Source of the DNA: a virus | Length of the DNA stretch: 30,550 bases | IMG/VR virus record: IMGVR_UViG_3300029267_001809 | Location: 1 to 30,550 of that record | Reading direction: 5' to 3' (one strand) | Shown here: piece by piece, positions 3,094 through 29,634 of the stretch | How the letters are laid out: the number at the start of each line of letters is the position of its first letter | How positions within the stretch are numbered: position 1 is the first letter of the stretch | Made by a program: the position numbers and the translations under genes | Notes under the pieces: model-generated | The model's input: only the letters and a program-made list of their open reading frames with translations | Told to the model about the DNA's origin: nothing | Databases searched by the model: none

Positions 3094-4110
3094 TTAATCA
3101 ATTAAAATCCCGCGCCCCGCAGCAGCACTTCCATACTCTGGGGCTTCTTTCGTTTGATGAAGAGGCAGAATCACATCACCGATGCTATTGCCCTCCAACG
3201 GAAGACTTGCGATATCAATTTGGTTTGCTGACTCAAAGAATTGGGTAAGCACCTCGAAATCGTCTTCATTAGCCATTTCAATGATGGCATCCAGCACATT
3301 TTCAGGGATCGCGATATGGGTTTTCCTGGAGGACTCAAGGATAATTTTGCGACGCTTTTCTTCTATGTCCTGGATAGCGGCCAACTTGCTTTTCACTCGG
3401 TCAAACTCTTCTTTCGTATTTTCAGCATGTTCCCGAAGATGGTCTTCATAGATTGCCGAGGCCTCCAATTTCTCTTGCAACTCGATATTGTGTAGCTGTG
3501 TCGATGCAAGCCAACTATCCAAGTACCGTTCTGCAGTGTCCTCGTTTACCCCGGTCTGGCAGATGTTCTCCAAAATTACATCACGGGTGTTTCCATCAGC
3601 ATTCTCCAAGAGAAATCCCCTATTTTCGGCGAATCCAGGATTCAAGACATAATCAAATCCATAGAACGCACTCGTCTGGGTTTTTCCATGGGCACCACCG
3701 TCATTGCCCCCCATTGCCCACGAAAACCCGCCGATTTTTGATTTATTAAGACCAGCGACGATTTTGCCGGATTCATTGTTCTCGATGATTTCCTGGTGAT
3801 GTTCCACATCCCCTTCTTCATCAATCTCAAAAAATGTGGTCACATTGCTCGGAACATTTTCCAGAATAACGGTTTGTCCTCCGGGGAGTTTCACTGTCTC
3901 CATTTCAGATAAGTTCAATTTGCCCGCGAGTTGCCGACGGCCGTGGCCAAAATACCCAAAGGCCTCACGCAGTCGGATTCGTTCCCGCGTTTCAGGGGCG
4001 AAACAAACGTTTCGGGCCGATTCTAAAACATAGTTGCGATGATGCCCTGTGTATTTTCGGCCCTCTCGAAACAGATTGAAATTACATTTGATCACTTGTC
4101 CCATTGTCAT
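3094..4110 (-). CDS. Putative prohead protease fused to scaffold
   Basis: This 338-aa protein directly follows portal and overlaps its 3' end by 29 bases, the usual place for the T4 gp21-type protease. Residues 50-165 form a compact domain with VEHHQEI (about 102-108), GKIVAGLNKSKIGGFSWA (115-132) and GFDYVLNPGF (151-160). GGFSWA with Ser130 sits where head-maturation proteases carry a catalytic serine. Residues 205-262 are a charged coiled coil typical of scaffolds, and the end is acidic and loose. It contains several hydrophobic-x-Glu sites like those T4 protease cleaves (VLE|SA at 30, ILE|SS at 259, FFE|SA at 293). Catalytic residues are my inference. A pure scaffold is the alternative. 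Confidence 0.55.
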   Translation of the reverse strand: MTMGQVIKCNFNLFREGRKYTGHHRNYVLESARNVCFAPETRERIRLREAFGYFGHGRRQLAGKLNLSEMETVKLPGGQTVILENVPSNVTTFFEIDEEGDVEHHQEIIENNESGKIVAGLNKSKIGGFSWAMGGNDGGAHGKTQTSAFYGFDYVLNPGFAENRGFLLENADGNTRDVILENICQTGVNEDTAERYLDSWLASTQLHNIELQEKLEASAIYEDHLREHAENTKEEFDRVKSKLAAIQDIEEKRRKIILESSRKTHIAIPENVLDAIIEMANEDDFEVLTQFFESANQIDIASLPLEGNSIGDVILPLHQTKEAPEYGSAAAGRGILID

Positions 4111-5674
4111 TCACCTCATCCTGTGGTTTCAGCTTGCTGAATACCAGTTTGAATTTTTCTTCATCCATTTGGAGAAGATCCGTATACACCCAATTATTCA
4201 TTGCTGCCGGGTCATACCCTTTCATTTCCGGATCCAAAGTCTGGATCAATTGAGCTACCAGCATAGCGAAGTTTACCCGGGCCTCCCGGTTCTCGGCATC
4301 TTCTCTTTCCATGGCAGTGGATACAGAGTTGAAAACGACTCGCCAGGGCTTTTGACCTGGGAGAAAGGCCTTGTTGAATTTGTAAGCGACATGAATGTCG
4401 AAAAGACGCTCCAGACCCGTCAAAAGTGATCTCCGTAGCATGCTGGCTTTTATAGCAGCAAGAATGCTGATTCGGAAAAACCCCCCATCTCCAAGCCCCC
4501 CGGAAAGCATTTCGCCGAATCCCAGAAGGGCCGGATCGATCCCTAATGCGGACCCCATACGTTTTATGTGAAACTCCACGTCAGTAAGCGCCTCAATGTT
4601 CGGATTGCCTTCCACCGTTGAAATTTCAAGTCGCCCCTTGCCGTCCCCCCAAATTGGGATAAGTCTGTTGATAGCGGTCTGGATATAACCACGGCGAAAC
4701 GAATCGATCGCTTTTCGTTCCTCTGTTTTCTGTAGCTGTTGCGCTACTGTATTCAGATACAGGGCTGCTTTTTGAGGCGTCAGTTTCCCTGTATTCACCC
4801 CGACTAACCGCTCAAGGCGTGCCGCATTTTTCCGTGACATCTTCAATGACTGGATTGCATCCATCAAATCCAGCCAAGGATGGAACGCCGTCTCGATCAG
4901 GCTTTGGCCATAGTTCTGTGATTCGACAAGCCCCTCAGCGCCGTAATCATCCGATGCAATATCAAACGGTATCTCCTCGTACCGCGTGGGCTCTAAATCG
5001 GTATTTGTTGACCAATGAGGTATGCGGAATACGATATACTTCCAGGGTTCCATCAACCGGAGACCCCCGCCATAGGGTCCCTGATATGCAGAGGAGAACC
5101 CTACCAACTGCCCGGCCCGCTCGTAGATCATGTTGAATCGCGGATGGGTATAGAAATCAGAGCGTACGAGTTTTACCCCAGTTTTTTGCCCCCCATAAAC
5201 CCGGGCAAACCAACACCCGTATTTTGCGGCATTGTACGCCCAGGAATGACAGCTTTGGTTAATGACCTCTTTGAACGTATTGCGGAGATCAACCGTTATG
5301 GGGTCGTCTTCGTCCGCTGTGCTTTCGATAGTCACGATTTCGCCCGTGTTCGGGTCGGCGGAAAGGGCATGGGAGATATGCATTTTAATAGCACTATCAA
5401 TGGTCGGATCGACCGCCATCGTATCCAGAATGGCATATTTGGCAAGCCTGTTTTTGGGGAAAACACCCAGGGCGATAGTGTCGTCGTCGCCCATAGTGGA
5501 CCCTGCCGTTTCTCCGGCCTCGCTGGCCTGAGTGGGCAGCAACCAATCTGCACCTTCGCCGGTTGTGACCGGCATGTTGTCAATAGGTGTTTTTTCCTCT
5601 TCCGGCGTTTGAAATCCTGGAAAGAGGCGCCGCCATAGTGTTTTTTTGCTTTCAGGCTTGTCTTTTTTTGCCAT
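4082..5674 (-). CDS. Portal protein (T4 gp20-like)
   Basis: At 530 aa this has the size and layout of myovirus portals, which form the dodecameric DNA channel at one capsid vertex. Evidence includes an N-terminal basic and acidic lead, AILDTMAVDPTIDSAIKMHI (about 81-100), then SRKNAARLERLVGVNTGKL near 280-298. The last corresponds to the Arg-rich stem and 'vxTGxL' region of gp20-type portals. FRRGYIQTAI and RMGSALGIDPALLGFGEM follow in the usual order. The C-terminus is acidic. It follows two tiny genes, and its own 3' end overlaps the protease gene. The ribosome site is weak (TTTGGGG). Large terminase, normally nearby, is not in the window. Confidence 0.85.
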   Translation of the reverse strand: MAKKDKPESKKTLWRRLFPGFQTPEEEKTPIDNMPVTTGEGADWLLPTQASEAGETAGSTMGDDDTIALGVFPKNRLAKYAILDTMAVDPTIDSAIKMHISHALSADPNTGEIVTIESTADEDDPITVDLRNTFKEVINQSCHSWAYNAAKYGCWFARVYGGQKTGVKLVRSDFYTHPRFNMIYERAGQLVGFSSAYQGPYGGGLRLMEPWKYIVFRIPHWSTNTDLEPTRYEEIPFDIASDDYGAEGLVESQNYGQSLIETAFHPWLDLMDAIQSLKMSRKNAARLERLVGVNTGKLTPQKAALYLNTVAQQLQKTEERKAIDSFRRGYIQTAINRLIPIWGDGKGRLEISTVEGNPNIEALTDVEFHIKRMGSALGIDPALLGFGEMLSGGLGDGGFFRISILAAIKASMLRRSLLTGLERLFDIHVAYKFNKAFLPGQKPWRVVFNSVSTAMEREDAENREARVNFAMLVAQLIQTLDPEMKGYDPAAMNNWVYTDLLQMDEEKFKLVFSKLKPQDEVNDNGTSDQM

Positions 5675-5949: not shown

Positions 5950-6279
5950 TCACGAAAACGTATAGTACCGGGCAACCCGTTTTATTTGGGCAAAAAACGG
6001 TATTTCATCCGCGTACTGTCCGATTTGCCTTGCCAAAACCTTGCTCCCCGTGAAAACAATCATGGTTTCACCTTTTAAGCGGAATTGAAGTGTCAAACAT
6101 TCGGTCGCATCGCCCTTTGGATATTTGCTCGTTAAAATGCGATAGCCGGTAATTTCGATTTCTTCTCCGAGGATGTCTTCAATCTTGCATTTTTTACCTT
6201 CCAATGCCGGGGTTTCTTTTGAAAAATCTGAAAAACATTTACGTTTAGAACGTGACTCTATATCGACAACGGCGCCCAT
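5950..6279 (-). CDS. 109-aa protein downstream of the DGR reverse transcriptase
   Basis: This basic, beta-rich small protein has a clear conserved-looking core: EIEITGYRILTSKYP (about 44-58), LTLQFRLKGETMIVFTGSKV (65-84) and a closing FAQIKRVARYYTFS. The pattern 'ITGYRIxxSKxP...LQFxxxGxxxVxFTGSxVLxxQ...IPFxAxIxxxxRYYTF' resembles small genes I recall beside DGR and phage reverse transcriptases, with a fold like a compact nucleic-acid-binding barrel. That is recollection, not a search. It follows the 154-aa gene by three bases. A role in DGR cDNA or RNA handling is possible but unproven. Confidence 0.65.
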   Translation of the reverse strand: MGAVVDIESRSKRKCFSDFSKETPALEGKKCKIEDILGEEIEITGYRILTSKYPKGDATECLTLQFRLKGETMIVFTGSKVLARQIGQYADEIPFFAQIKRVARYYTFS

Positions 6280-6282
6280 AAT

Positions 6283-6747
6283 TTAAGACCCGCTGACGAT
6301 GCTGCTTAAAGACACATCTGGTTTTGTTGTATCAAACTGGCTGAAATTCCACATAATCAACTCCGGTGTGCTGGATGCCAGGATTTCGGCTTTTTTGGTG
6401 TAGTAGTAACCCAAACAACTTTGTATCCAAGGGAAAATGGCCTTAATGGCTGTTTTAGTTTCTTCCGGCACGTCATCCATTGCGATCATGGCCTGGAACG
6501 TCTGCTGTGTACCGGCATCGTAGTAGCCGTAAATATAGGCCCCAATGTCCTCATTCAGTTTCCGGGCAATCAACGCCTGTTTTTCAGCCAATGACGGGTT
6601 TTTAAGAACAAAAAGAGACCGTGCACGGTATTGCTGCGTTCCCTCTTCACCCTCACCCACCGTTACCTGCTCAATACAAAATGGCACCCGGTACTGCTGA
6701 TCATCGTATTTTTCTATATTAGGCTGATCCATACTGTAACTGTACAT
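6283..6747 (-). CDS. 154-aa protein translationally coupled to the DGR reverse transcriptase
   Basis: The start codon at 6747 lies inside the last codons of the reverse transcriptase gene (29-base overlap), with AGGAG seven bases upstream. The product is acidic, with an N-terminal beta-type part (YRVPFCIEQVTVGEGEE), a middle segment rich in Gln and Ala, and a C-terminal helix-rich stretch (IFPWIQSCLGYYYTKKAEIL, about 105-124). It does not look like the small basic Avd protein of classical DGRs. Position makes it a candidate DGR accessory, or simply a virion protein translated from the same message. I do not recognise a family. Confidence 0.62.
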   Translation of the reverse strand: MYSYSMDQPNIEKYDDQQYRVPFCIEQVTVGEGEEGTQQYRARSLFVLKNPSLAEKQALIARKLNEDIGAYIYGYYDAGTQQTFQAMIAMDDVPEETKTAIKAIFPWIQSCLGYYYTKKAEILASSTPELIMWNFSQFDTTKPDVSLSSIVSGS

Positions 6748-7798
6748 TTGCCGCTCCTTTCGAATAATAAGGGTTTTTAATATTTAATGCCGTTGCTGCT
6801 TCGGCAATCTGTTTTTGTGTCAATGTTGCGTATTTTCGCCACAGGTTTCGGCCGTTAGCGTGCACAAACCATCCGAAATAACTCATGATCGCGCAAATGT
6901 CGCTGTCTGTGGCCTTGTTCTGCTTAACGATCTTCGCAGATCGTCTTTTGAATGCCGTTGAAATTGATTTTCGGATTAAAGTGTGGCTGCCAAAAAACCG
7001 GTATCCTAAAAAATCAATGCCGCGGATACTGGTTGGGAATATCTGCCAATCGCCCTTAACGGTCAATTTTAAATTCGTACTGAGGTAGCGTTGAATCTCA
7101 AAAAAGAGTGGATGAAGAACGGATTTGTCTGAATTTAAAACTACGATATCATCACAATAGCGTGCGTAATACCGACAGCGCTTTTTTTCCTTCATCCAGT
7201 GATCGAAATATGTGAGATACAGGTTTGCCAAATACTGGCTGAGGTAATTCCCAATCGGAACTCCCGGAGCACTGTCAATGATTTCATCAAGAAGCCACAG
7301 TGTGTCCGGGCATTTTATTTTCTTGCGGACAATGGCTTTCAAAACATCATGATTGATGGACTGGTAAAACTTTCGGACATCCAGTTTCAGGCAATAGCTG
7401 GTCCCCTGTTCGTCATTAAGAAATCTGTTCATCCGTCGCACACCGTCATGAATTCCACGTCCTTTCATGGACGAATATGTGTCTCGAATAAACAACCGCA
7501 TCCAAATAGGCTCTAAAACATTCATAATGCAGTGGTGTATGATTCGGTCCGGATAATAAGGCAATTTTGCGATATCGCGCAATTTGTTTCCCTCAACCCT
7601 CTGAAACCGTACATATTCAGCATTTCGGAATGTCTTGTTTTTGAGTATATTATGAATCCTGGCCACGTATTTCTCCGGGTTTGCGTCGATCATCTTTACT
7701 TCTTCGTAAAATCGTTTGCCGCGTCTGGCATTTTCATGGGCAAGAAGGATATTGCCCGTGTTATAGATTTTCGGATATAAATTCCCGTATCGCTTCAT
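6719..7798 (-). CDS. DGR reverse transcriptase
   Basis: This 359-aa reverse transcriptase would copy the adjacent template RNA with errors at adenines. The polymerase motifs are complete and ordered: LKLDVRKFYQSI with catalytic Asp140, GVPIGNYLSQYLANLYL (179-195), YARYCDDIVVL with the Asp216-Asp217 pair, and GIDFLGYRF (260-268). The (I/L)GNxxSQ form in motif 4, rather than the retron or group II intron form, is characteristic of DGR enzymes. There is no maturase, thumb-X or endonuclease extension, and the length is normal for the family. It lies just after the template repeat and target gene. No clear ribosome site precedes its ATG, so translation may be low. Confidence 0.92.
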   Translation of the reverse strand: MKRYGNLYPKIYNTGNILLAHENARRGKRFYEEVKMIDANPEKYVARIHNILKNKTFRNAEYVRFQRVEGNKLRDIAKLPYYPDRIIHHCIMNVLEPIWMRLFIRDTYSSMKGRGIHDGVRRMNRFLNDEQGTSYCLKLDVRKFYQSINHDVLKAIVRKKIKCPDTLWLLDEIIDSAPGVPIGNYLSQYLANLYLTYFDHWMKEKKRCRYYARYCDDIVVLNSDKSVLHPLFFEIQRYLSTNLKLTVKGDWQIFPTSIRGIDFLGYRFFGSHTLIRKSISTAFKRRSAKIVKQNKATDSDICAIMSYFGWFVHANGRNLWRKYATLTQKQIAEAATALNIKNPYYSKGAANVQLQYGSA

Positions 7799-7897
7799 AA
7801 TACTACTACTGTGCTTGTGTTGCTCCCCAGATGTTCAGTTTTGCCTTACCGATCTGTAACGGGAGGCGTTATGTGTTTCGCCAAGTGGCGAGGTTTC

Positions 7898-7934
7898 GGA
7901 CGGTCGGTTGATCACAAGTAGCTGACCGACCGCC
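7898..7934 (-). other. Hairpin spanning the 3' end of the template repeat
   Basis: CGGTCGGT (7901-7908) and ACCGACCG (7925-7932) form a perfect 8-bp inverted repeat around a 16-base loop. G7898-G7899 can pair with C7933-C7934 if A7900 is bulged. One arm lies in the template repeat, the other just beyond its 3' end in coding sense. The matching VR end has no second arm, so the hairpin is specific to the template copy. It may mark where the RNA template is primed. Confidence 0.5.
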
Positions 7935-8046
7935 GATATTATCATTGCGATTCGAAGCCGTGTTATTCGCATTGCGATAAGCGACCCCCGCATTCGCGCC
8001 ATTATTGAGGTTGCCCCCTGACAGAAGCGCCCGCCAACCGGCGGAA
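7916..8046 (-). repeat. DGR template repeat (TR)
   Basis: This 131-bp segment is a non-coding near-copy of the 3' end of the target gene, aligned without gaps to 8140-8270. Read in the target frame it gives GGNLNNGANAGVAYRNANNT..., with ten AAC/AAT codons, the usual DGR template design: any adenine change still cannot create a stop. Of its 27 coding-strand adenines 21 differ in the VR, while only two of 104 other positions do. It lies between target and reverse transcriptase, in the same orientation. An interval of about 90 bases separates it from the target stop and 117 bases from the reverse transcriptase start. Confidence 0.93.
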
Positions 8047-8137
8047 TCCGCCCGAAACCCGAGAAAACCGGGCAACCGCGTGCGCCTTGCGCCTTGCGTG
8101 TTGTTGCCCTATTCGTTTTGTGAATCAGGTTCATTTT
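8047..8137 (-). other. Spacer between target stop and template repeat
   Basis: No gene is seen here. The interval is GC-rich with several small structures: a near-palindrome GGCGGAATCCGCC at 8040-8052 straddling the TR edge, a 4-bp GC hairpin CCCG-agaaaac-CGGG at 8058-8072, and a doubled GCGCCTT at 8082-8095. These may belong to the 5' part of the template RNA. Open frames across it are accidental. Confidence 0.4.
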
Positions 8138-9547
8138 TTAAGCAGCCGACCGACCGCCGACAGCACCATAGCGATCCGAAGCCGCGGCACTCGCAGCGCG
8201 ATAAGCCACCCCCGCCATCGCGCCAGCATCGAGGCCGCCCCCCGACAGAAGCGCCCGCCAACCGGCGGAAGAACTCGCGTAGGAATAGTCGGTTATGAAT
8301 GTATCCGAGCCGCCCCCGGACACGGAAGACGGTAGAAACGTATCCGCGTGTAGTGCGGACTGATAACCAGATGTCAGCGGTAGATCAATTCCCATGTCGT
8401 CATAATTAGTATCCGTGTCGTCCGCAAAATTAGCCGGATTATTACAGACATAGACATTTGCGTCAGTTAGGGGATCACCTACGAATTCGACATTTATCCC
8501 GTCAAGCCATTTCCAAAGGTGCCCGTAAAAATTCTCAATTCCACGGAATGAATTTGCTATGATGATATCCGGAGTACCTGAGAAATCATTGCTACATCTC
8601 AATGCCGATAGTGCATCACCGTATGTCACCGAGCCGGAGACGTTCCCTAATGTAGCTGTAATCCCGGTTTTACATCGTTTGGCGAGGTCCCATGCGCCGC
8701 CCTCTGTGTAACCGGGGATGCCATAGGTTGCAGACTGACTGTACCAATTCGCATACTCTGTTAAATACAACAGGATCATGGCATGATCGGCCCAGTAGCA
8801 ATTTTGGTAATAGCTCCCATCCACCGCACACGCGGTTCGCAATTCCGTGCGGTTAATGTAGGTCATGGGGATGTAGCCGTAAACGCTATGGATTTTATCC
8901 CCTGCCGCATATAAGCTACTGCCAGTTCCGTCCACATAACTGCCCGCTGTGTCATCATACAGGACACCCTCAAATGCGGAGAAATATTTGTAATCCGATA
9001 GATCGCCACCCCCCAGGAACCAAGGATGATTCACGCTAAAAACCTGTGACTCATCCGATTTGGTCAGGTAAAACGGGTTGAATCCAATCAACAGGTAACG
9101 ATAATCCCCGTCAACCTCGTCAATAAACTCAAACCGTTTGGTCTGGACCATCACTTGGCCGTCCGTACCGTCAATATTTGCAGCATCACCGTTTTCCTTA
9201 TAATTCGCGTCCTCGGGATGTAAAAAATACTGAAAGACTGTCGAGCTATTCAGGATGCAGCGTTTCATCGCCTGTTGGACCGGAAATTCCTGATAGTCAA
9301 ACGGGACAAACACGCCCGCCGCGACAACCCCCTTTACCATTGCCGGGGAACTTGCGCTTGTGTCCCATCGGACGCCGTAGGCGGACATGAGACCCATGGT
9401 TTCCAGGACATTGCCCAGGGTCGCTGGGCTGATAACCTTTGCCGCTTCCGACAGTCCCCTTGCTTCCTCTCCGGTTGCATACACGTCTGCGGTTACGCCG
9501 TTTAGCGCATCAACAATTCCACCGATTGATTTGTTTGTAATAGTCAT
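8138..9547 (-). CDS. DGR target protein, probable tail adhesin with C-type-lectin-like end
   Basis: This 469-aa protein carries the variable repeat at residues 427-469. The ending GWRALLSGG...AGVAYR...GGRS is the framework of the C-type-lectin-like fold used by many DGR targets, in which variable residues form a ligand surface. The larger N-terminal part is rich in Tyr, Asp, Gly and aromatic residues and has no signal peptide, fitting a virion tail or receptor-binding protein. I chose the ATG at 9547 because AAGGAGG (9554-9560) lies six bases upstream; an upstream in-frame ATG at 9583 lacks this. It follows the broken fibre gene directly. Variation here would alter host attachment; the receptor is unknown. 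Confidence 0.88.
   Translation of the reverse strand: MTITNKSIGGIVDALNGVTADVYATGEEARGLSEAAKVISPATLGNVLETMGLMSAYGVRWDTSASSPAMVKGVVAAGVFVPFDYQEFPVQQAMKRCILNSSTVFQYFLHPEDANYKENGDAANIDGTDGQVMVQTKRFEFIDEVDGDYRYLLIGFNPFYLTKSDESQVFSVNHPWFLGGGDLSDYKYFSAFEGVLYDDTAGSYVDGTGSSLYAAGDKIHSVYGYIPMTYINRTELRTACAVDGSYYQNCYWADHAMILLYLTEYANWYSQSATYGIPGYTEGGAWDLAKRCKTGITATLGNVSGSVTYGDALSALRCSNDFSGTPDIIIANSFRGIENFYGHLWKWLDGINVEFVGDPLTDANVYVCNNPANFADDTDTNYDDMGIDLPLTSGYQSALHADTFLPSSVSGGGSDTFITDYSYASSSAGWRALLSGGGLDAGAMAGVAYRAASAAASDRYGAVGGRSAA
8140..8270 (-). repeat. DGR variable repeat (VR) in the target gene
   Basis: This is the diversified copy of the template repeat. It encodes the last 43 residues of the target protein and abuts its TAA stop (8138-8140). 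The ten template asparagines have become Gly, Asp, Ala, Met, Ala, Ser, Ala, Asp, Tyr and Ala, while flanking residues such as GWRALLSGG, AGVAYR and GGRS are unchanged. The GC-rich 3' end (GGCGGTCGG in coding sense) is the likely initiation-of-homing region. Two differences, at 8207 and 8216, are not at template adenines. Confidence 0.93.
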
Positions 9548-9558
9548 ATCTTGCCTCC

Positions 9559-9927
9559 TTAATTTTTGTCGATCAGTATCCAATCAAACGTACATGACGT
9601 ATCGGACCCTGTGCATTTAACTGTGTATCCATCGGTTGCTTTGCTAACCACGTAGATGCTGCCAACATTAAGCGGATCAGCCGTTGGTGTAATTGTTACC
9701 ATATAGGTGGTCCCTGTCAGAGTCGCACCGATTGAAATGGCCACGCCGGTTGTGCTGTTAAATGTGCCGCTTCCAGCATATACGCCTAATGCCGCTTGGG
9801 CTTGGGCAGTGGTTTGAGTGATAAGCCCTTTTGATCCATCTGTAAAAACGGGCAATGACGCTGATACACCTGACAACGTCACCCCAACAAACTCCGGTGT
9901 ATCAGTCGTCTCCAGGTCCTGGTCCAT
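9559..9927 (-). pseudogene. Tail-fibre gene, 3' fragment
   Basis: This fragment starts at an internal ATG (MDQDLETTDTPEFVGVTLSG) and ends in a beta-rich domain (GTTYMVTITPTADP...TCTFDWILIDKN) just before the DGR target's ribosome site. The frame is open further upstream to 10092, but that stretch reads a different frame from the fibre sequence there and looks spurious. The start has no convincing ribosome site. It shares the first 37 residues with the middle fragment through the 146-bp direct repeat. If the frame were restored at the G-run near 9963, this would be the C-terminal domain of one longer fibre protein. Confidence 0.5.
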
Positions 9928-9962
9928 AGCATAGACTTCATTGGCACCCTGACCGGTGTCCC
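9817..9962 (-). repeat. 146-bp perfect direct repeat, copy 1
   Basis: Identical base for base to 10169-10314. It encodes the fibre motif MDQDLETTDTPEF...SKGLI in the frame of the 3' fragment. The copy boundary at 9962/9963 falls in a run of five C (G in coding sense), exactly where the reading frame is lost. Confidence 0.95.
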
Positions 9963-10279
9963 CCGATGGCCCCAGGTGCCGCCAGTTTGGCCGCAATGTT
10001 GGCTGGCGTGGTTGCCTTGTCTGTTGCAGACCCCGTAACAATCTCGGCATCAGTTGAAAATTCGACAACCCCTGTAGCTTCATCAGTCGCATCCTGTTTT
10101 AATGCCCCGAATGCCTCAGCCGCCGTCGTCTGGCCAGTTCCTCCCCGATCAATGGGGACAGTGCCGGAAGTGATAAGCCCTTTTGATCCATCTGTAAAAA
10201 CGGGCAATGACGCTGATACACCTGACAACGTCACCCCAACAAACTCCGGTGTATCAGTCGTCTCCAGGTCCTGGTCCAT
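9938..10279 (-). pseudogene. Tail-fibre gene, middle fragment
   Basis: The reading frame begins in the second copy of the direct repeat (MDQDLETTDTPEFVGVTL) and continues through typical tail-fibre linker sequence: IDRGGTGQTTAAEAFGALKQ, then DEATGVVEFSTDAEIV and ATTPANIAAKLAAPGAIGG. It then enters the first repeat copy in the wrong frame and stops after six residues (HRSGCQ). Phage fibres usually continue in frame after APGAIGG. The two repeat copies are 352 bp apart, which is not a multiple of three, so the frame cannot continue. No ribosome site precedes its ATG. Confidence 0.5.
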
Positions 10280-10314
10280 AGCATAGACTTCATTGGCACC
10301 CTGACCGGTGTCCC
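10169..10314 (-). repeat. 146-bp perfect direct repeat, copy 2
   Basis: Identical to 9817-9962 at an offset of 352 bp. Its right edge at 10314/10315 is where the signal-peptide ORF passes into the wrong frame. Full identity in a fast-evolving fibre gene points to a very recent event, or to an assembly error. Confidence 0.95.
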
Positions 10315-10590: not shown

Positions 10591-11064
10591 TTAACCGATA
10601 AGAATTCTTGTGAGATCCACCGTCCAATCATCGCTGGTCGCTTCGCATTTCAGTTGGACGTCATGGCCATCTTTTTCAATTGAAAATGATACCGCTTCCA
10701 GAGTTGTGCCGATATCCGGGCTGGCTTCCTCTGGTATCGGGGCGATGGCCCCGTCCTCTTCTCGATCCCAACATGCCTGGATTCGACCGGTCCGCATATT
10801 GGCCCCATCACCCTTGTCTACTACGTAATGCCAAATAGCCCCCCGGGCTACCGTATCGACAATTGTATCAACAGCAATTACCCCCGTATCTACAACTTGC
10901 GAATCCAGGGAAACCGCTCTCCCAAGAACATGCCCACCTACCGTTAACCCGTCCCCTACACGAAGCTCTTTACGTTCCAGATCGAATACGGGCTCCCCTT
11001 CGACCGGTGTGTAGGCGTCTACATCATCCGCTTGTCCTCGTTTAAACTTAATTACATGGCTCAT
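10591..11064 (-). CDS. Tail-fibre protein with Mtd-N-like head domain, 157 aa
   Basis: Residues 3-47 (VIKFKRGQADD, EGEPVFDLERKELRVGDG) match the short trimerising module found at the N-terminus of phage tropism determinants and other tail fibres, pattern 'KRG...EGE...D....L+vGDG'. The rest is beta-rich (GAIWHYVVDKGDGANMRTGR). The ribosome site GGAGGT is formed by the last codons of the preceding 91-aa gene. It lies in the appendage cluster and is likely to be a virion part that carries or caps a longer fibre. The related module in the Bordetella phage belongs to its DGR target, whereas here it is in a separate gene. Confidence 0.62.
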   Translation of the reverse strand: MSHVIKFKRGQADDVDAYTPVEGEPVFDLERKELRVGDGLTVGGHVLGRAVSLDSQVVDTGVIAVDTIVDTVARGAIWHYVVDKGDGANMRTGRIQACWDREEDGAIAPIPEEASPDIGTTLEAVSFSIEKDGHDVQLKCEATSDDWTVDLTRILIG

Positions 11065-11957: not shown

Positions 11958-12386
11958 TTATTTTCTCCTTATATTTTTGGATAACGCCCGTATTTCCATT
12001 TCCTCATCGCCGGAGGTATAATCAATCGAGTCTCCGTCCTCAGTTTCCAAAGCGTGGTAAGGATTCTCCGCCATTTGCCCTGGCATAAATCGCGTATCTT
12101 CATATGCCCATGCCGCCAAAAGATTGTAGACGGGATCGCCATAATCCAGAGCATCAAACCATTCTTGGTCAATATGTCCCCCAAAATCAGTGATGCCATG
12201 ATCAATCAATATCGCCTTTACCAGCCACCAATACGGGCCATAGGTCCGATAACGCAAGGGCTGTTTTCGCAGGATGCCAGCGATCCCGCTCAACATTTTC
12301 GTTTCCCATTCGGCCGCGGTCTGATTTGCGGTCGCTTCAATAAAAAATGGGGTCAGTTCGTCTTTCGTGGGCTGTTGAATCCTCAT
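11958..12386 (-). CDS. Hypothetical virion-assembly protein, 142 aa
   Basis: This is a soluble, acidic, aromatic-rich protein beginning MRIQQPTKDELTPFFIEATA and ending in an acidic then basic tail. AGGAGG lies seven bases upstream of the ATG. It sits between the giant polyvalent gene and the appendage genes, spaced by ten bases from the former. Helices around residues 23-60 and a Trp/Tyr cluster (YRTYGPYWWLVKAIL) are visible. No family is recognised. A tail or baseplate attachment protein would fit the position, but this is inference. Confidence 0.6.
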   Translation of the reverse strand: MRIQQPTKDELTPFFIEATANQTAAEWETKMLSGIAGILRKQPLRYRTYGPYWWLVKAILIDHGITDFGGHIDQEWFDALDYGDPVYNLLAAWAYEDTRFMPGQMAENPYHALETEDGDSIDYTSGDEEMEIRALSKNIRRK

Positions 12387-12396
12387 TCTTCGCCTC

Positions 12397-15300
12397 CTAC
12401 TCTAAGAGTTCATAGACTTCTTTCAGATCGACGCTGCTTGGAATATGCCACCAGGCCCCCTGAAAATTATCGTCTGCATTTTTAAAGAAACTCGCCCGAT
12501 ATCGCGTTTTCAGTATATCTTTAGCTCGGAAAAGTTTGCCGGATTTAGCATGCACGTCTTGTAAAAACCATCGCGCAAAGGGTTCATACTGTGTGCCGCG
12601 TCTTCCCTTAAATCCCGGTGCCACCATATTTGTCATGTTCGTTTTGACCGTAACTCCAAGGTTCTGAAACGCATCGGCAACATTGGCTGGGACTTCCTTA
12701 TAGTTCGGGTCTTTTTTCAGATCTTCAAACGCCTTCCGTTTCTCTTCCTCTTCCCGCCGCTCTTTCTCCAGCATCATCTTGTCGATTTCAATGTGCTGCA
12801 ACTGCATCCAAATGTCGTCAAGCGCATCCAGGTTGTCTACGGCCCCCGCCAGGTTTTTTTGGGCAAGAGCTAAACCTTCATGATATTTCTCATTTAGCTT
12901 GTTCATCCGTGCTTTAACGATCATCACAGACCCATCATCGTCTGGAAGCAGTTCGTCCATGACATATCGCAAGGCCTCGGCCGCGGCCGTCCGCAGTTGC
13001 GTTTCCGTCGCCATTGTGCCGTATGACATAGCAGTTTGCCGCCAATCGCTGCCAAAAAGCACGTTCATCACATATAGTACACTACCTTTCACCAGGTTTT
13101 TCCGTTGATATTCAAGGAACATCTCACAGACTTCTTTCCGGAAATTTTCATCCTGGGGTTCCGGGTACACAATTTGGCGTTTATCTTCAATTTCGCTGAA
13201 TCCCATTGCATCCAGTCCATCATTGGTGCGCACCAGACAATCATCTTGTCGCGCAATATTGATTTCATGGACGTGATCCAGGAATAACTCCTTACTGAGC
13301 TTCCCCTCGACCAGATCAATATAATGCCATTCCTGACTCATCATCTTTTTCAGTGCGATTTCGTCTTCGGAATACGAAACCTTTTTCATATCTTTCGCGG
13401 GCCACATGCCAATAGGCGTTACACTACCGCTACCCTCTTGATATTCTTGGGGTATATTGATGTAATTCGTCACACTTTCAAACTTAATCCATTTCTGTTT
13501 TGGGTTCACTTCGGTGATTTGCAATAGCCTCCCGCCATACATTTGCCGCAACCGGGGGGCTGCATGGTCGTTGTCATCCGCCGTGAGGATTTCGTAGGTA
13601 TCCCCCTTTGCCACCACCACGCCGGTCAAGGACGCCACCGCGTTTTCAGGATGGTCAATTAGGGATTCGTCAAACGGAAGACCCTCTTTCTGTGCTCTGT
13701 GACGCAACATTCCCGACACCTGCTTGACACGGGCTTCCAGGGTGGTTTTCTTTTTAGCGTAATCCACATCCAGGCTTGATAAACGGTTTTTAGCGTTATC
13801 CAGGGACCGTTTGGTTGTTTCGATTAGCCCTCTCAGCTTCGCCCGGATTTTCTCACCTTCATATATATCCGCAACCCGCACCTCATACTTCCGCAATTTC
13901 TCTTCCCGGACCTGGATATTCTTTTCCAGTTTGGCCCGATCCGCCTCTTTAGTCGCATCCAGATTTTGGAGCGTGTGCGAAGCACTGGCCAACACCTGCA
14001 GGCTGTTGACAGATATCATAGCTTCCCGGGCCTTCCGTTCCGCCGCCTTTTTTGCCAGCTTTTCCATCCGGTGTTTTTTAGCCTCTTCCGGGTCAGCATC
14101 CAGCATGTCCACATAATCGTCCTGATCCAACGCATTGGCGTTTTCGGCCCGCGCGCCCTTGCCCTTAAACAACTCCGTCATCCAATTGGATTTCTTCTTT
14201 AAAAGATCCAGACGGTACTGGTCGAATGATCCTTTCCCTAAATAGTAGTAAATATCAATATGCTCTGCCGTATTCCCCTGTCTGACGCCGCGCCCGTTGC
14301 GCTGCTGGATGCTGGCCGGGGTCCATGGCAGGGTCAGGTGGTGTACAGCAGTGGTCCCTTTTTGCAGATTCACCCCCACCTCGGCTTTTTTGTTCGCCAC
14401 AATGATTTTCAGCTTGCCGCTGTTATACAGGTTGGATATCTGTTGCAGCTTCGCGCCGTTGGCAGTATCCGCATTTATAATGCCTATCACATCTTTCCAG
14501 AGGGGAACCTCATTCACAATCAACCGCCGTATTTTATCATGCTGTGATTTTTCCTCCGTGAACACAAGTTGCTTTCCCTTCTCCTCAAAATGCTTTCTCA
14601 ATCTCTCAACCAGCTTGGCGTATTTCGGGGTTATCGGGTGCCCGACGTCAGCTTCATCAATGTGCATCTCGGGGAATTTTGAGACAATCAGATTTTCAAA
14701 ATCCTCCGGCACTACCAACACATAGGTATCCCCTTCCATCCGGGTCGAGTGCTCAAATGGGATATTCTGTGTTATCCGCTCGCCTTCTTCTACGATTTTG
14801 GCCGTAATTGCATTTGGCATCTTGTCAATAATGGCGTCCACCTTGTCCTTGTCTTTCACCGCAAAATGAAAAGTCATGGTGTGATGATACAGGTCCATGT
14901 CTGTAGTCACCCTGTCCATGTCGCGCATCACCGTAAACATGCTTTCCTCGGAACCGGGTTTTGCAGCAGCCTTAGCCCTTTCCCTAAGTTCGTCGTACAC
15001 TGCCTGTTGTTCATCCGTCAGATCTACCATGTCGTTGTGTTCGTCGTGAGGAGGTAAGGGCAAATCCACGTCTTGTGCATTCTTCATAATGGTGTATTTG
15101 TGGTACAGGTTTCGTAGACCGTCCAGATTTTGAAAACCGGTCAAACCCTCCACGCTCGCCACGTCCCCGGAAACCTTTACTTTATCGACTATTTCGATAT
15201 ATCCAAACACCCGCACGAAATCATCCACAGTATAGATGCCAAATCGCTCAAATTCATCTATAGGGCAGCACAGTGACAGTATATTATAGATTTCAAATGG

Positions 15301-18300
15301 GCTGTTGGTCACAGGAGTGGCCGATAGCAGGTATGCCCCCCGACCGCCGTTGGCACCCCGGAGGTAGTTCATTTTCATCGCCATGTCGAGGGCTCGTTGT
15401 GCAGAAGGCGCTGTTGGCAGGTAGGCGATTTGTTTAGTGTTCTCACCTGCTTCATAGGAATTTTTGAATTCGTGGCACTCGTCTACAATCACATCAGTGA
15501 AACCCATGTCCTCAAAAAACGGAAGTTCACCCTTCTTCTGGGTGCCTTCATCGGAATACTTCTGCGCCAGGTTCAACCGGTCCTTATCGCCTTGATAGGA
15601 TCGGCTGCGTTCACGCCCACCACCAGCAGCAGCACCTTGGCTGTTTTCATTGACCGCCTTATCCGCCTGCTTTTCGCTGATTAGCGCCCTGTCAACCATC
15701 TTGTTAGCAAACCCGCGCTTCGTGCTGGGCCGCATGGGAATGGTGCCATACTTCTCTTTTGTCATAATGACTAAACTGTAATTTCCCTGGGGTATTTTCC
15801 ACATATCTTCCCATACTTGTTCCTTGCTGTCTGTACGGACCAGCGCGTCACGGTACTCCAGTTCCCCCGTATGCTTGTTCTTTTTCGGGTTTCCCCGCTC
15901 GTCTTTCACAACCTCCCGCTTAATATTGCCATCCTTATCGGTTTTCGGTTTAAAACCGACTGTGAGCACGCCATCATGGTTCCCTAAGAATTTCTTGGAC
16001 GAATGATACCAGTTGGCTAACACGGCATTCGGAACTACGATACAGGTCTTTTTTGACCGGCCCATCTGTTTGTTGTAGGCGTAAAGGCCCAAGGCAGAGA
16101 AGGTCTTTCCGAGTCCCACGTCAAAGGCCAAACATCCCCGGCCCTCTTCCGACAGCCGTTGTATGGCCGCCGATTGGAAATCGTGGAGCTTCACCTGCGG
16201 AGAAACCCCTTTAAGTTTCAGTCCTACGCCGCCATATTCATGTTCCAAATATCCATTAAATTTCTGATTATACCTCTCTACCAGTTCAAGGATATCCCCA
16301 TGCTGCTGCATCCACACCTGGAATTGTTCCTCAAGCGCCCTTGCGTTCCCCTGGTATGCCTCTTTGGTATCTTTCTTGGATGATGTGACATTTTTGCCGT
16401 TCAGGTACTTATTGAGCTGCTTCATCCAACCAGAAGCGGTTTCATACCCAATAAATTTCCCAAACGGGTCGGTGGGGTCTTCAACAAACTGGTCTTTTAA
16501 CGTCTTCTCACCGGTAACTGGGTCCTCCTCCTCAATTTTCTTCCATACACCATATCGTATACTCGGATATCCGTTGTCTCGGAGAAAATCCACTACGTAT
16601 TTCCGGCTGAACCATTTTTGCCTCAGACCAAAATCAATGTCCTCCGATTTCGTGCTTCTCCGCCGCTTCATGATGTAATCGATCTGTTTTTGGTATTTGG
16701 CCGTAATCCGGGGGTCTGTTTCATCGGCCATAGCTTTTGTCATTTCCTGCAATTTCGGATAAATGTCCCCGCTGCAGTACCGGCCCAGGGGCATAATCAT
16801 GCCTTCCGGGGTAACAGCCACGGCATCGTCTTCTGCGATATCCCCCAGGGATTCGATTTTGCGATTCCCCGCATATAATTTTTGTACATCCTCCAGTTCG
16901 ATGTTCTCAATACCCTCCCGGATATTCAGGTGTTCTACAATCGACCGCAGATTGGTTACGTCAAATTCCATGTGATCGTTCGCCACCTGGCCGGATAGCA
17001 GGTCTGAAAAATTCCCGGTTTCGTCCATCGCATTCAGAAATAAGCCAAACATCCGTGAGCTTTCCCCGGTCAGGACCAAACCCTTATTGTTCTTCGGGTG
17101 GCCGTATTTCTCGACTTCCGCCACAACAATATCCTGCAATTCGGACCGCATGGCGTCCGCATCAGTCGCATCATCACCCTCCGCCGCCGCCTTCAACCGA
17201 CCGATCATGCCGCCGATAACCGATCCACGCCAGACCTGTTCGCGGAATTCAGCCCTGGGTTGAGACATGGCAAATTCAATCGATTGTGCATGGAAGGGGC
17301 TCATGAGGTCCGGGAAGGCCTTCCACGAGGCAAACGCCTGATCCGCCGTGAGCTGTAAGGCCGTTTTAGGGGATGATAGAATGCTTTCCAATTCACCATA
17401 CGTTTTTGCGCCATACTTGGCCGCCTCCAACACCATGCCGTCGCCGGATCCCGCCTTATGGATTTTCACCCAGTCACCGGCTTGCAGTTCGTACTCTTCA
17501 CTATTGATAATGCGCCGATCTCCCTCGGCATAATTCTTTACCACGGGTTCCGCTATTTCCAGAGCATCCCAATCAATCCGGCTGGAGAACCGTATTGCAA
17601 GCTTGCGCTTGAGGCCCTCGTTATCAATATCTCCATCGACTGTTTCCCTGCTCCAACGATCTCCCTCAACTTTGGGGGTGTACTTGCCCATAATGTATTT
17701 CCGGCCTTCACCCTTCCAGTATTCCCCGGATATAAACTGATCCCACAATACACTGGCTTCCTGCAGGGTTTCCAGGTGGATGCTATCAATCTTTTCCAGG
17801 AGATCCCTGGGGTGTTTTTTGAACACCACGATATCAACTACAGTATCCGTCCCTTGGGCCGCAAACGTCTTGCTGGGGAGTTTGTGCGCGCCCAGGAATT
17901 CCGCCTTTTTCGATACCGCTGTACGAAATTGCGTCCATTTCCCACCCTTAGCCCCTACGATATTGACCGGTGCCACGAAACACGCCAGCTTTCCTGGCTT
18001 AATTTTGTCCAGGGCACGGAGGATGAAATATCGCTCGATCCGCTTTTCGTTTTTATACGCCGGATCATCATGAGCACAGGCCCCCCGGGCATCCCCGAAT
18101 GGCACGTTGGTGATACACCCATCAAAGGTATCATCCGGGGTTTCCATCACAAGCTGTTCAAAGGGCCTATTTTGGATACTATCTTCAGGATTCAGAAGTT
18201 GTGCGATTTTCGATCCCGTTGAATCCAGGTCGCACCCGGTCATAATAGCGCCCTTGGGTTTGGTCCCGGAAAACACGCCAGCCCCTGTCGATGGATCCAG

Positions 18301-21300
18301 GATATTTCCGTTCTCGAAACCGTTCGCCAAAATGGCATCCCACACCCCTTCGGCCACATGGGTAGGTGTGTAATACTCATATTGCGAGTTCTCTGTCAGA
18401 CCACCCTTCCCAGAATACTGTTTCAGAATCCCGATTTCTTCTTGCGTCAGCTTTCCCGGATCATTCACACGCGCAATGATTTCACGTGCCTTGGTGTTCA
18501 ACTCTTCACGGGCCTTTTTCCCTTTCATCTTCAGACCGTAATCGCTATTTCCATCATCCTTGTAGTCGGTGATGCTTTTCTTGATTTTCATGGCCGCGAC
18601 GCCAAACAGCCTGACGAACACAGACTTGATGTCATCCAGGGTTTTCGCTCTTTTTATCGGGATTGACCATGACACTATGCCGGATGTTTCAAAAATGGGA
18701 TCATCCTGTTTCATTGACAGTTCTCCGCTTGCCGACTCAAAAAGGTTTCCGTTTTTATCTGAGTATTCTTCTTCCACTTGTGCAATCGCCCGATTGATGA
18801 TTTCCACCTCGGTGGGAGGTGCTGGTTTTTCGAACAAGGACTCTTGATCACGCATGGATAGATGATCCTGGAGGATATCCGCCGCCACCTGGAGCACCCT
18901 GCCGATCCGTTTCCCGCTTCTGATATGCTTGTCAATAAACCGCGCAAACGCCTCTGTCCCTTCCGGAATATCCCCAAACAGGCCCCCTTGGGATAAAATT
19001 TCATCGATTACGACATTCTCTTCACGGGATTTTCGCACCAGCGCCCCGGCTGCAATCGCATGTTTAGGAATATCGATCCCGTCAAAATCTTCTGCAAACG
19101 CCCGGGCTTTCACGAAATCTTTTGCCGCAAACGTGAGGCCGTTCAGGATGTTTCGTAGATCCGGGTTGGTCTCTTCTGCTACCAGGGCCAACACAGACTC
19201 ATCTTCATAGGCTTTTTGGAAAATGGCTGCCTGAATCCGGTCAATCAACTGTTTCGTGGGCCGTCCGTCCGCCGTCAAGTATCCCGCCGACTCGTTTACC
19301 CCTAATTTCTGGATATATCGTTTAATGAAAGCCGTATTAGAAGAAGCCGCTATGTTGCCGTCCTCGGAAGGCGCGAATATGGAAAGATCCGATTCCGTGA
19401 GGGTCTCTGCGTCCATCTTGGCAACCTCAACGGGTGACATTTGCGCCAGTTCGTCTTTGTTGGCATCCCGCGCAAACTGAGCACGATCCGCCACTTTCCC
19501 CACGCGCATACGCACCAGGACAGGCATTTCCATGTTCGCCACGTCAGTTCCGGCCATGCCGAATTCTTGAGAGTGTTGGATTAGCCATTCACGGTATTCC
19601 TTCCCCTTTTCCCCAACGCTATAGGCGGCCCGGAGCGCCATAGTTCGCCCGTTCCCGGATTCCACTGCCAAATCCGGCCCAGCAATAGGAGCACCGGTCG
19701 ATGCTTGGGGGCTCGCCGCCATCCTTTCGGGATTTAGCTTGTTTGCCATCTCTTTAATTTGTAGCTGCATAGCCCCCCGGTCACGTTGCCGGGGTTGTAC
19801 TTCTTGAGGATAATCCTTGGATAATGCCATGCTGTCATCATGGGAAGTCTTTAAGTCCCCTACTTCCACAATCGCGTATTGCATCTTGACAGGCGTATTG
19901 TCGAACAAAAAAGCAGATGTCGGATTCCCTACAATGTGCTTGACTTTCGACATTGATTCTGTTAGATTTTCTGTAACATTATCACCGGGAGGAAAACTTA
20001 TGGTTGAATATTTATTGTACGATGAAGAGTCCCCCTTCGCCTTTGATAAGGATTCTTGGGAGACATTCTCCATGGGGGGAAGCGACAGGTCTACTTGGGC
20101 TAAAGTTGATGATCCTGACATGGCTTTCAGGATCAGGTCAAACTCTCGCGTCATTTCCGAGACAGAAGCTAAAGTTTTAGCAGACGATTTGACACGGGAA
20201 GAGGAGGAAGAGCGGGCCGCTTCAGCATAAACCTTCCGACTTAAATCGTTTAATTCTTCCATCACTCCCCGCGCCACAAACCGGGTATCCCCCTCTGCCT
20301 TTTCCGCAACCGGGGATAGCTGTCTTGTTATGTCATAAATCTCATGCCCCAACCCCTTTTCCTTGGCATCGATCATTGACTGCGTGTTTAGTTGCAACTC
20401 TGCAATGTGACCGTTTGGGAGAGAAATGTTCATGAAGATATCCCGATATCCACTTGGCAGGGGTGTTTCGTAACGGTTTTTGAGCCGGAAAACGCAGTCT
20501 TCATGTTCCAGCATCCTGAACGCCCTTGCTGTCTCATTGACAGTATCGAACACCAACGTCCCGGCCAGGATGTCTTTCAGCCCAGCAAAGGTTCCGTGCT
20601 TATCCGCATTAACCTTTTCTATGGAACGTTTCTTGCTTTTCAGCCCCGGCCTTATCATCACTTTGCCGCCGGTTTTGGCACCCCACTTTTCCATGAAATC
20701 CGTGAACAGGGGTTGCGCTTCGGCTGCCTGCTCATACAGATCGTCCATGGTCTCGACGCCCTGCTGTTTCAAGGTTTTCTTGACCTCGACAACCGCATGC
20801 CCCTCGCCAAGGTCTTTGAGTGCCTGCAATGTCGTGTTGCCGTCCAGGATCTTATATTTCCCGTTTCCCATAGCCAGGGCATGAATAGGGCCGCGCTTTT
20901 TTCCGGTCCCTGCCTGGACGTCTTTCATGTATTGGTGGGCATGTTCAAGACGTTTAGGGGTCGGCTTTTCACGCCGAACCAATTTATCAATCGGCACGAT
21001 AATGCTGCGGTCAGTGGCCTCGAAATAGGGAGACGCCTCCGCATCTGTGGGCACCCGAAACAAAATTTTGAAAATGTTAGAAATATCATAAAAACTATCG
21101 GCTTCGTCCAAGGCATATTCCCAGTTGGAAGAATCAATTACATCCGGATCTGCCATTTCAAAGATAGTCTCTGCTGATTCCATAATGTTCCTTTGGCCTA
21201 ATAGTTCTTCCACTTCCTGGAAGGTCTTGTTTTCAAAGTCGTGAAAAAATGATTGTCTTACCGAATCCTTGTTTCTCATGAATGCTTCGATTACATCAGC

Positions 21301-27492: not shown

Positions 27493-29634
27493 TTATGCTG
27501 CCTCCTTCATTTGTTCAAGGACCACAGTATAGTGGTCCGCTGCTTCGTTTAGCAGATCGTCAAACTCTTCCATACGGCCAGCATTTTCCAGCTCATCAGC
27601 TGCTTGGTCCAGTACTCTGTCAATGGCGTCCGGGTCGTCATCCAGGTCCCCGTTAAGAATACGGTTCAGCATTTTGACTGCCTCGGGTTCTTCGGTTTCT
27701 GGGGTGGGCTCGGGTGCTTTTTCCTGATCCGGCTCTGGCTCAGGTTCGGGGGTAGGTTCACTTGCGTGGGATATAGCCACCTTATCATTCCCATCAAATT
27801 TCCACGTTTTACCCTCTTCTCCCATTCGTCTCGTAAACTCGATGCTCTCATCGTCAATATTGCCTTTTTTAGTTTCGAGAGATCGCTTTAGACTCGCTGT
27901 AGTCCGGTTTTCAAATTTGGCCCGAACCTTTTCGACTAATGAAGGTTTCACGTTGCCCATCCCCTTGTATGTATCGACATAATCCATCGCAGCATCCACG
28001 GCTGCTTCTATATCCGAATGGAATTTTTCACCATAAAAGGATTTAGATTCTTTGTTTACAGTTGCCAAGAAAGAGCTATCTATTGGAGTGAGATACAAAT
28101 GAACTTGGATTCGCGACTCAAAGCCATTTTCGCCTTTCAGATCAAATGCGGTATGGATGGATTGTCCGCTCACAGAGCCCCCGGCATTTGGATCTATGAC
28201 ATATCCCCGTGCCTCCATTTTTTGCTCGACCTTATCGAATTGCAATTGCAACTCTTCCGAGGTCATCGCTTCTGATAATTTTGTAATGGTTCCTTCATGC
28301 GCCCATGCCGCGATTTTTTGCCCTGCATTTGTTTGGATCTGATACTGAACCTTTCCAGAAACATCATCTTTTGTGATCTCTTTAATCCAACCCTTATATG
28401 ATTTCCCATCAGGCATTTCATAACGCACCATATCATTTATCTTGACATCCACTTCCGGTCCGGGCTCCGGGGTAGGTTCCGGCCGGTTCGCATACCCACG
28501 GACATACATGTCGTCTACATATTTATCCCATTCTTCTTGTGTCATTTTCCCGTTCTGGAAATACTCCCATACTCGCCCAGCCGATTCCGCATTCCCTAAA
28601 CGGATACCAGGGATCTTTTCTCTGCCAATATTTGCAAGCCTAAGCCTTTCCGCCGCTTCTTCGTCGTATCCTCGCTTTGTTTGCAAGTCCTGTATTATCC
28701 GTCGGAGTCCATCGACCCCTTTATCTTCTATCACTGCCTGGATATTCACTTCCGTCATTCCCAGGTCCAGAGCCTCCCGTTCAAGGGCGGCGATAGCGGC
28801 ATCTTCCTCTCGCGCTTTTTCCTGCTCCCGCGCTTTTTCTTCCGCCGCCTTCCAGCCATCAATTTGTTTTTGCAGATCCGCATTTAGCGCAATAGCCGCG
28901 CTAAGTTGCGCCTGTACGTTTTTGATGGTCATATCCATGTCCTCGGAGTCTTCCCTTTGCGCCGTGATTTCCATCATGAGGTCATCCCGTGCGGCCGAGG
29001 TAATCTCCAGATCTGCCTGAGCCGTCCTCAATTCGGCTTTTTGTTTCCCCACCTCTTTTTGGCGTTTCTGGAATCGTTCGGAGTTCTTGGCCGCGATCTG
29101 AGTAATCCGCTTTGAAATTTGCTCCAAGGAGACCTCTCGGTCCTCTTCAGGCGAAACAGCTTGTGTAATATCGCGCTTGTTCAGTAGCCATCGGAAAGCG
29201 ATGATCTTGTCATCGGGCATAATTTTGAGATTATCGTCGTCAGGAGAATGGAAAACGATACTGATTACCTGCCCGTCTGAAAGCGGGATTTGGACAGTGA
29301 TTGACGCGAAAAGGCCGGATCTCTTGACCTTACCAATTATGGCCTCCTGTGCGGTAATCTCATCAAAATTCTTGTTCAATGCCCGGACCAGCGCAGCCAT
29401 TCTCCGTTTAGTTTGGGAGAACTTACGCACAATCACGGCCTCCAGGAGCATCTCAACACCTGGGTTGTATTCTGTCTCGATTTCGTCCATGGTCGCGGTT
29501 TCACACAAAAGTGCCTCATCTTCCGCATCAGCAGACAGCTTGTAATAGATGTCTGCCAAATCCTTGTCGGAGAACGGCTTTGCGAGTAAATCAAGCGTCA
29601 TGTTTACCTTTATACCTTCACTTATTGGATTCAT
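27493..29634 (-). CDS. DarA-like defence-against-restriction protein, 713 aa
   Basis: Residues 1-190 carry the DarA N-terminal pattern: IPLSDGQVISIVFHSPD (about 117-132), FRWLLNKRDITQAVSPEE (147-164) and RITQIAAKNSERF. In phage P1, DarA is an internal head protein needed for packaging other Dar proteins that protect injected DNA from type I restriction. Residues 190-320 are a coiled coil, followed by proline-rich linkers (EPTPEPGPE near 405, EPTPEPEPEPDQE near 625) separating two small domains, and an acidic C-terminus. The start at 29634 overlaps the previous stop (TAATG) with GGAGG upstream. Co-location with the DarB-like giant protein supports the same job. The central domains are not identified. 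Confidence 0.78.
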   Translation of the reverse strand: MNPISEGIKVNMTLDLLAKPFSDKDLADIYYKLSADAEDEALLCETATMDEIETEYNPGVEMLLEAVIVRKFSQTKRRMAALVRALNKNFDEITAQEAIIGKVKRSGLFASITVQIPLSDGQVISIVFHSPDDDNLKIMPDDKIIAFRWLLNKRDITQAVSPEEDREVSLEQISKRITQIAAKNSERFQKRQKEVGKQKAELRTAQADLEITSAARDDLMMEITAQREDSEDMDMTIKNVQAQLSAAIALNADLQKQIDGWKAAEEKAREQEKAREEDAAIAALEREALDLGMTEVNIQAVIEDKGVDGLRRIIQDLQTKRGYDEEAAERLRLANIGREKIPGIRLGNAESAGRVWEYFQNGKMTQEEWDKYVDDMYVRGYANRPEPTPEPGPEVDVKINDMVRYEMPDGKSYKGWIKEITKDDVSGKVQYQIQTNAGQKIAAWAHEGTITKLSEAMTSEELQLQFDKVEQKMEARGYVIDPNAGGSVSGQSIHTAFDLKGENGFESRIQVHLYLTPIDSSFLATVNKESKSFYGEKFHSDIEAAVDAAMDYVDTYKGMGNVKPSLVEKVRAKFENRTTASLKRSLETKKGNIDDESIEFTRRMGEEGKTWKFDGNDKVAISHASEPTPEPEPEPDQEKAPEPTPETEEPEAVKMLNRILNGDLDDDPDAIDRVLDQAADELENAGRMEEFDDLLNEAADHYTVVLEQMKEAA

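Follow-up and report, generated by a model that had tools for sequence, protein, structure and literature searches.

The window, a 30,550-nucleotide stretch of viral DNA spanning positions 1 to 30,550 of IMG/VR record IMGVR_UViG_3300029267_001809, almost certainly contains a diversity-generating retroelement (DGR) acting on a phage tail protein. The cassette itself is an ordinary one, real and of a known kind. A second component, a small gene linked to the DGR reverse transcriptase (RT) and predicted to encode an OB-fold protein, is probably real, widespread in this RT lineage and un-named in the databases searched. We propose the encoded protein as a partner of the RT, and consider a DGR with such an RT-linked OB partner a quite probable explanation of the locus as a whole.

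Independent repeat detection recovered two 131-nt copies in the window. If, on the minus strand, the downstream one is taken as the template repeat (TR, 7916-8046, between target and RT) and the other as the variable repeat (VR, 8140-8270), the two align over 131 nt without gaps and with 23 mismatches. In the VR, 21 of the 27 TR adenines are altered, 15 being G there, 4 C and 2 T; of the 104 other positions, 2 are altered (T55G and C64G; Fisher p = 6e-17). All ten template Asn codons are altered, and 17 of 43 codons and 14 residues are changed. The VR retains just 6 A, each paired with an A in the TR, and the direction from TR to VR is therefore clear. Realignment reproduced the figures of the original prediction, made from the sequence alone, for the gap-free pair, the altered adenines and other positions, and the Asn codons. 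Its claim that a VR so different from the TR reflects mutagenic homing agrees with the adenine-specific pair. Because of this adenine bias, which recurs in relatives, chance or a simple old duplication under relaxed selection is extremely improbable as the origin of the repeats, and no point supporting that origin was found. The original prediction had also proposed searching the phage for more VRs; a search of the 30,550-nt record with the TR gave two matches, the TR itself and the known VR, and none beyond.

An inverted repeat with an imperfect stem of about 12 bp spans the 3' end of the TR (7896-7936, minus strand; z -2.22, 5 of 200 shuffles as good), and the TR RNA folded together with the spacer gave z -2.33. 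Directly downstream of the VR, no hairpin or cruciform better than shuffles was found (z 0.13). An ORF covering the TR (7835-8134) had no family match and was set aside as a chance frame. The window contains no tRNAs, and no known RNA families at gathering scores.

The target is a tail protein of 469 aa encoded at 8138-9547 on the minus strand, with the VR as its C-terminus and the stop codon at the VR end; the program-made ORF, with a TTG start, extends to 9583. It matches phrog_5302 (tail protein) at 1.5e-61, has no Pfam match, and its best PDB sequence match is not significant. An AlphaFold model built from 16 sequences reached a mean pLDDT of 75, and was poor at the N-terminus (first 50 residues) and in part of the VR (pLDDT below 50 at 437-445 and 460-469). 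Comparison of this model with TaqVP (5vf4), a DGR variable protein of Thermus aquaticus, gave Z 16.7 and 3.5 Å over 247 residues (model range 92-462), the next match having Z 2.3, so that the predicted fold resembles that of TaqVP at a sequence identity of just 17%. TaqVP has a C-type lectin fold, according to the available part of PMC6328139. In the model, the VR falls at the C-terminus of a putative C-type-lectin-like target, in a part modelled with low confidence. The DGR reading of the original prediction is thus supported by the RT, the adenine-specific pair and the C-terminal VR in a variable protein of DGR-like type. Its placement in a phage appendage cluster is in keeping with the tail-protein target and with a nearby gene for a protein with an Mtd N-terminal domain (10591-11064, minus strand; PF18454, 2.9e-8).

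Among the small ORFs beside the target lie two 159-nt copies (9804-9962 and 10156-10314), 96% identical and 352 nt apart, which is not a multiple of three. The overlapping contig L003 ends inside this repeat, and the pair is either a duplication or an assembly artefact. Four other records (L085, L087, L088, L114) contain relatives of the target (33-58% identical), and an RT of the same kind was not found in them, in a search run with no positive control; these are targets without a DGR, or their DGR lies elsewhere.

The RT (359 aa, 6719-7798, minus strand) matched RVT_1 at 9e-17 and phrog_1423 at 5e-118. Among solved structures, its best match was 8ub7 (2e-40; next, 4e-17), the chain of which is the RT of BPP-1, as the BPP-1 protein matches it over the full length. 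The SQ motif marks DGR RTs. The translation contains the motifs IGNYLSQ and YCDD, and thus the GxxxSQ motif 4 of DGR-type RTs, and the use of SQ as such a mark is in line with the available text of PMC3521204. The order of target, template and DGR-type RT on one strand, as originally predicted, was borne out for the minus strand. The predicted span of 7916-9547 encloses the target, TR and VR, and the RT lies outside it.

Overlapping the RT end is an ORF of 154 aa (6283-6747, minus strand), which is weakly similar to a small neighbour family (E 8e-5 to the family profile). Members of this family also lie beside the targets of L085, L088 and MetMV, for which the search lacking a positive control gave no RT. 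The ORF was considered as an Avd-like gene and rejected, because its weak relatives accompany targets where the RT was not found; it is probably not part of the DGR.

To place the cassette among its relatives, the best 80 of 111 IMG/VR stretches encoding RT relatives were taken. An adenine-biased TR/VR pair was present in 76 of 88 sequences scanned (87 loci and the window), or in 73 of 85 loci once the window, L003 and L083 were left out, with pairs retained only when at least 75% of mismatches fell at A. Over 86 distinct pairs, including that of the window, 1438 of 2177 adenines and 44 of 5844 other positions were altered, a bias partly selected by the filter. VRs of different loci with a common TR (at least 97% identical) differed in 205 of 241 pairs, at 2400 of 4633 TR-adenine positions versus 59 of 11868 others; these pairs share members and are not independent, and the comparison is less selected than the TR/VR sum. 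The original prediction had set adenine-specific change in relatives against equal change at non-adenine template positions, and it was the former that was found. Because VRs sharing a TR differ almost only at TR adenines, the DGR mechanism has been at work in the lineage, and we infer that it is still active in the window phage.

An alternative is that the DGR is a relic that no longer works, the difference between TR and VR being old. Only one overlapping contig of the same phage was found in IMG/VR (L003, identical in DNA to L083 and L294), and the VR is identical in the two contigs covering it, so that no population variation of the VR was seen in the window phage, as expected of a relic. 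Against this, the contigs share 9,218 identical nt, with the VR among them, and may represent one population. The RT is also intact, with few non-synonymous against saturated synonymous differences to its relative in L004 (pN 0.15, pS 0.80), and outside the template adenines the two repeats match at 102 of 104 positions. A relic therefore appears improbable.

In many relatives (among L037-L082), a single TR has two VRs upstream of it, at about 200 and 600 nt, and L078 has three VRs for one TR; in these relatives one DGR serves paired targets.

The RT-linked gene, a feature that did not appear in the original prediction, lies at 5950-6279 on the minus strand and encodes a protein of 109 aa, which we propose as a DGR subunit. 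Homologs are found directly behind the RT in many relatives; in the window, the ORF at 6283-6747 stands between the two. Two explanations of this arrangement were weighed: that the gene encodes a partner of the RT, or that the DGR is of the ordinary sort and the OB-like gene a syntenic passenger with no role in homing, such as an ssDNA-binding protein of phage replication.

Among 89 RT loci that had 450 nt or more of downstream sequence, a profile search found the OB gene in 66, counted as loci and not as independent lineages. In the reverse direction, three subsets of the OB family retrieved 178 loci; of these, 175 were new, and the profile confirmed 174 of the 175. Excluding three with too little upstream sequence, 171 were testable, and a DGR-type RT was present in 169 (130 of 132 when loci with OB DNA already in the RT-fetched set were removed); the queries were RT-linked family members, which favors close kin. 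In all 169, the RT preceded the OB gene on the same strand; the median gap was 15 nt, and 162 gaps were of 300 nt or less, with one of 2,714. The presence of the RT in front of OB in 169 of the 171 testable loci argues against a passenger. No RT was found in the remaining two, L208 and L213. An adenine-biased TR/VR pair was found in 96 of 130 distinct OB-fetched loci. In many of the other 34, the best repeat was spaced near 400 nt with many non-A differences; these repeats are probably paired targets, and 96 of 130 is hence probably a lower bound.

A search of 395 genomes of one phylum, none picked for DGRs except the centre genome, gave six OB matches including that genome. All six had an RT within the 1.5 kb taken to each side, which also counts against a passenger; OB lay behind the RT in five and before it in one (L303). 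The upstream position is shared by L105. The four records with target relatives and no RT found also lacked OB, and three of them hold the neighbour family, again unlike the behavior of a passenger. Furthermore, and likewise against a passenger, RT and OB are joined in one open frame in six loci: L046, L048 and L099 (with the same lengths and borders), L075, L228 and L242. Searching phage records with the window OB protein gave two matches, and a second family query returned the same two; one OB subtype gave 29 matches, from phages of Bacteroides or Phocaeicola and from two uncultured phages.

In favor of a passenger, OB is missing from 23 of the 89 testable RT loci. One of these is the nearest relative, L004, which has an RT 76% identical to that of the window and an adenine-biased TR/VR pair. 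No OB was found in the 23-kb L004 record or in those of 12 further RT loci without OB, with L029 as a positive control, nor any Avd in the seven of these records scanned with the bAvd model; the records may be fragments. It seems that OB is not strictly required in cis and that some DGRs have neither OB nor Avd; where OB is lacking, the subunit may have been lost, replaced or supplied from elsewhere.

The fold of the OB protein was then considered. Searched by itself, the ORF at 5950-6279 matched nothing in Pfam, PHROG or NCBIfam, and a search of 42 family members against Pfam and NCBIfam gave scattered matches in one or two, none convincing. PHROG 19665, with no assigned function, matched 39 of the 42 members, and did not match the window protein at 0.01 or 0.1. 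Comparison of coding sequences gave a median dN/dS of 0.06, with 97 of 97 pairs below 0.5; by these sequence comparisons the gene is coding and under purifying selection. A model from 37 sequences had a mean pLDDT of 84, a core above 93 and the strand order b-b-b-a-b-b, which fits that of a five-stranded OB barrel. Foldseek returned no match below 0.001. Realignment of its list placed the OB domain of RuvBL2 (Z 7.3), the bacterial SSB 3lgj (Z 6.4) and Rim1 (Z 6.0) on top, where Z values below 8 can reflect merely a common arrangement; this weak structural match is a further point for the passenger explanation. The best PDB sequence match of the family profile was not significant, and the predicted pI of members ranged from 5.0 to 9.7. 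From the model, an OB fold is likely for the family. Taking both sides together, we regard the passenger explanation as rather unlikely, and prefer that of a partner of the RT.

The accessory protein Avd is common in DGRs, though not universal. Searches of the window with PF22296 and PF05635 gave no match, and the controls were likewise silent. A purpose-built Avd profile found none in the 10-kb stretch of the window, and found the Avd of BPP-1. The bAvd model, run over 16 records that did not include the window, matched BPP-1 at 2e-37 and none of the other 15. It was also silent on the whole records of five OB-bearing phages, p00, LoVEphage, BKO1-TP3, ANMV-1 and vir525, in a search that was positive for BPP-1. 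The original prediction had called the DGR complete: RT, TR/VR pair and target are all present, and the word holds only if Avd is dispensable, as none is detectable.

Among 319 loci, many of them overlapping or near-identical, an RT was present in 303, OB in 251 and Avd in 31 (BPP-1 and 30 loci fetched by Avd), and OB and Avd occurred together in none. A further 31 RT loci had neither, some for want of flank. Loci taken from genomes extend just 1.5 kb to each side. In the 30 best Avd loci, an RT was in reach in 25. At the genome level, two of the six OB-bearing genomes had a PF22296 match on another contig, one of them above the cut-off. Because 178 of the same 395 genomes match PF22296 (50 pass its cut-off), this family also picks up proteins that are not necessarily DGR Avds. 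The exclusion of OB and Avd thus holds at the level of the locus, and Avd could be supplied in trans in prophages.

In an RT tree of 63 tips, the seven Avd-associated RTs formed one group (SH-aLRT 92), and the OB label needed 8 changes, compared with 15.7 in shuffles; the tree was made by a quick method, with many weak forks and Avd rows that are partly fragments. The OB-lacking RTs are scattered, and losses or replacements seem likely.

By analogy with known DGRs, the RT would reverse-transcribe the TR RNA, making errors at A, and the resulting cDNA would replace the VR, rewriting the C-terminal, presumably ligand-binding, end of the tail protein. The OB protein, beside or fused to the RT, would bind the cDNA or the TR RNA there and do the job of Avd, a role that we favor on balance. 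A broader and more tentative proposal, to which we give somewhat less than an even chance, is that the subunit of a DGR can be of either of two unrelated kinds, which are not combined in one cassette. One RT clade would use Avd, and a large set of neighbouring RTs, from phages (including this P1-like phage), prophages and archaeal viruses, would use an OB-fold protein, encoded separately or fused to the RT. The OB protein would then bind cDNA or template RNA and be needed for homing, so that the DGR works without Avd.

According to the available part of PMC10053308, a survey cited there suggested one DGR-associated protein with no Pfam or CDD family. The OB family is likewise without a convincing Pfam or NCBIfam match. 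We take the cited survey to be that of Wu et al. 2018, and it is conceivable, if not quite an even bet, that its un-named protein is the OB protein. This identity would bear on novelty and not on role: the link would be known, the fold and the exclusivity perhaps not. An OB-fold DGR partner is not described in the available parts of PMC4372165, PMC8144416, PMC6642488, PMC10053308, PMC8867640, PMC12386605, PMC10743442, PMC12875486, PMC6199706, PMC12135933, PMC3521204, PMC4159848, PMC7159879 and PMC7824862, a comparison outside which lie the surveys Wu 2018 and Carrasco-Villanueva 2024.

Among the closest known systems, the DGR of Bordetella phage BPP-1 (mtd, avd, TR, brt) has the same order of target, TR and RT, a tail receptor protein as target, a homologous RT and a repeat of 134 nt, versus 131 nt here; its A-specific change is known from the literature. 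In BPP-1, avd lies between VR and TR, whereas the window has no detectable Avd and an OB-like gene behind the RT; the BPP-1 record has no match to the OB profile. The DGR of the archaeal virus ANMV-1 (adtA), a different virus from the window phage, has target, RT and then an OB homolog directly behind the RT, as in the window (49% identical over 86%). In both ANMV-1 and vir525, the OB gene following the RT is annotated as hypothetical. A figure legend in the available part of the ANMV-1 paper labels an Avd ORF; the bAvd model was silent on the ANMV-1 record and also on the 64-aa ORF before its RT.

In the hankyphage (Bacteroides phage p00), a transposable phage and not a P1-like one, the annotated RT has the OB domain as its C-terminal part, fused where it is separate in the window. 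The phage records jmh42, jmh43, jmh47 and jmh51 also have the OB match inside the RT feature, and the corresponding strains are named in the available text of PMC12135933. The same text reports DGR activity of hankyphages and labels an Avd, whereas the p00 record gave no bAvd match here. The cassette alone adds a member to the well-known tail DGRs, in a P1-like kind of phage. Were OB a true subunit, it would help to explain how Avd-less DGRs work and make a compact RT-OB fusion available for the study of mechanism, and the step from cDNA to VR would become testable in the hankyphage.

The phage setting was examined by comparison with Enterobacteria phage P1, which has homologs of the window portal, pro, Ulx, DarA, Hdf and the DdrB region at 30-35% identity. 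The P1-like prt (portal) lies at 4082-5674 and pro at 3094-4110, both on the minus strand and assigned by homology to P1. The Dar/Hdf/Ulx genes are at 11958-12386 and 27493-30224, in an order with the portal that is unlike P1. In P1, darB and prt adjoin and are divergent; in the window, ulx and prt are separated by a block of 6 kb that includes the DGR. The annotation of the first 32 kb of P1 lists the Cin inversion gene and no RT; P1 carries Cin, and its relative in the window a DGR. A literature search found no paper joining 'P1-like' and DGR. The record, a 30.5-kb piece, combines homologs of P1 virion and Dar genes, and hdf and darA also stand beside a DGR in a second record, L086. The best target match among phages is a Methanosarcina virus, while the portal is P1-like. 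An integrase is encoded at 23-1120. On the minus strand, 12397-24057 is a single ORF of 3,886 aa for a giant polyvalent protein with pyrophosphatase-like, ddrB-ParB, RelA/SpoT-like and SNF2/helicase domains and DarB-like matches.
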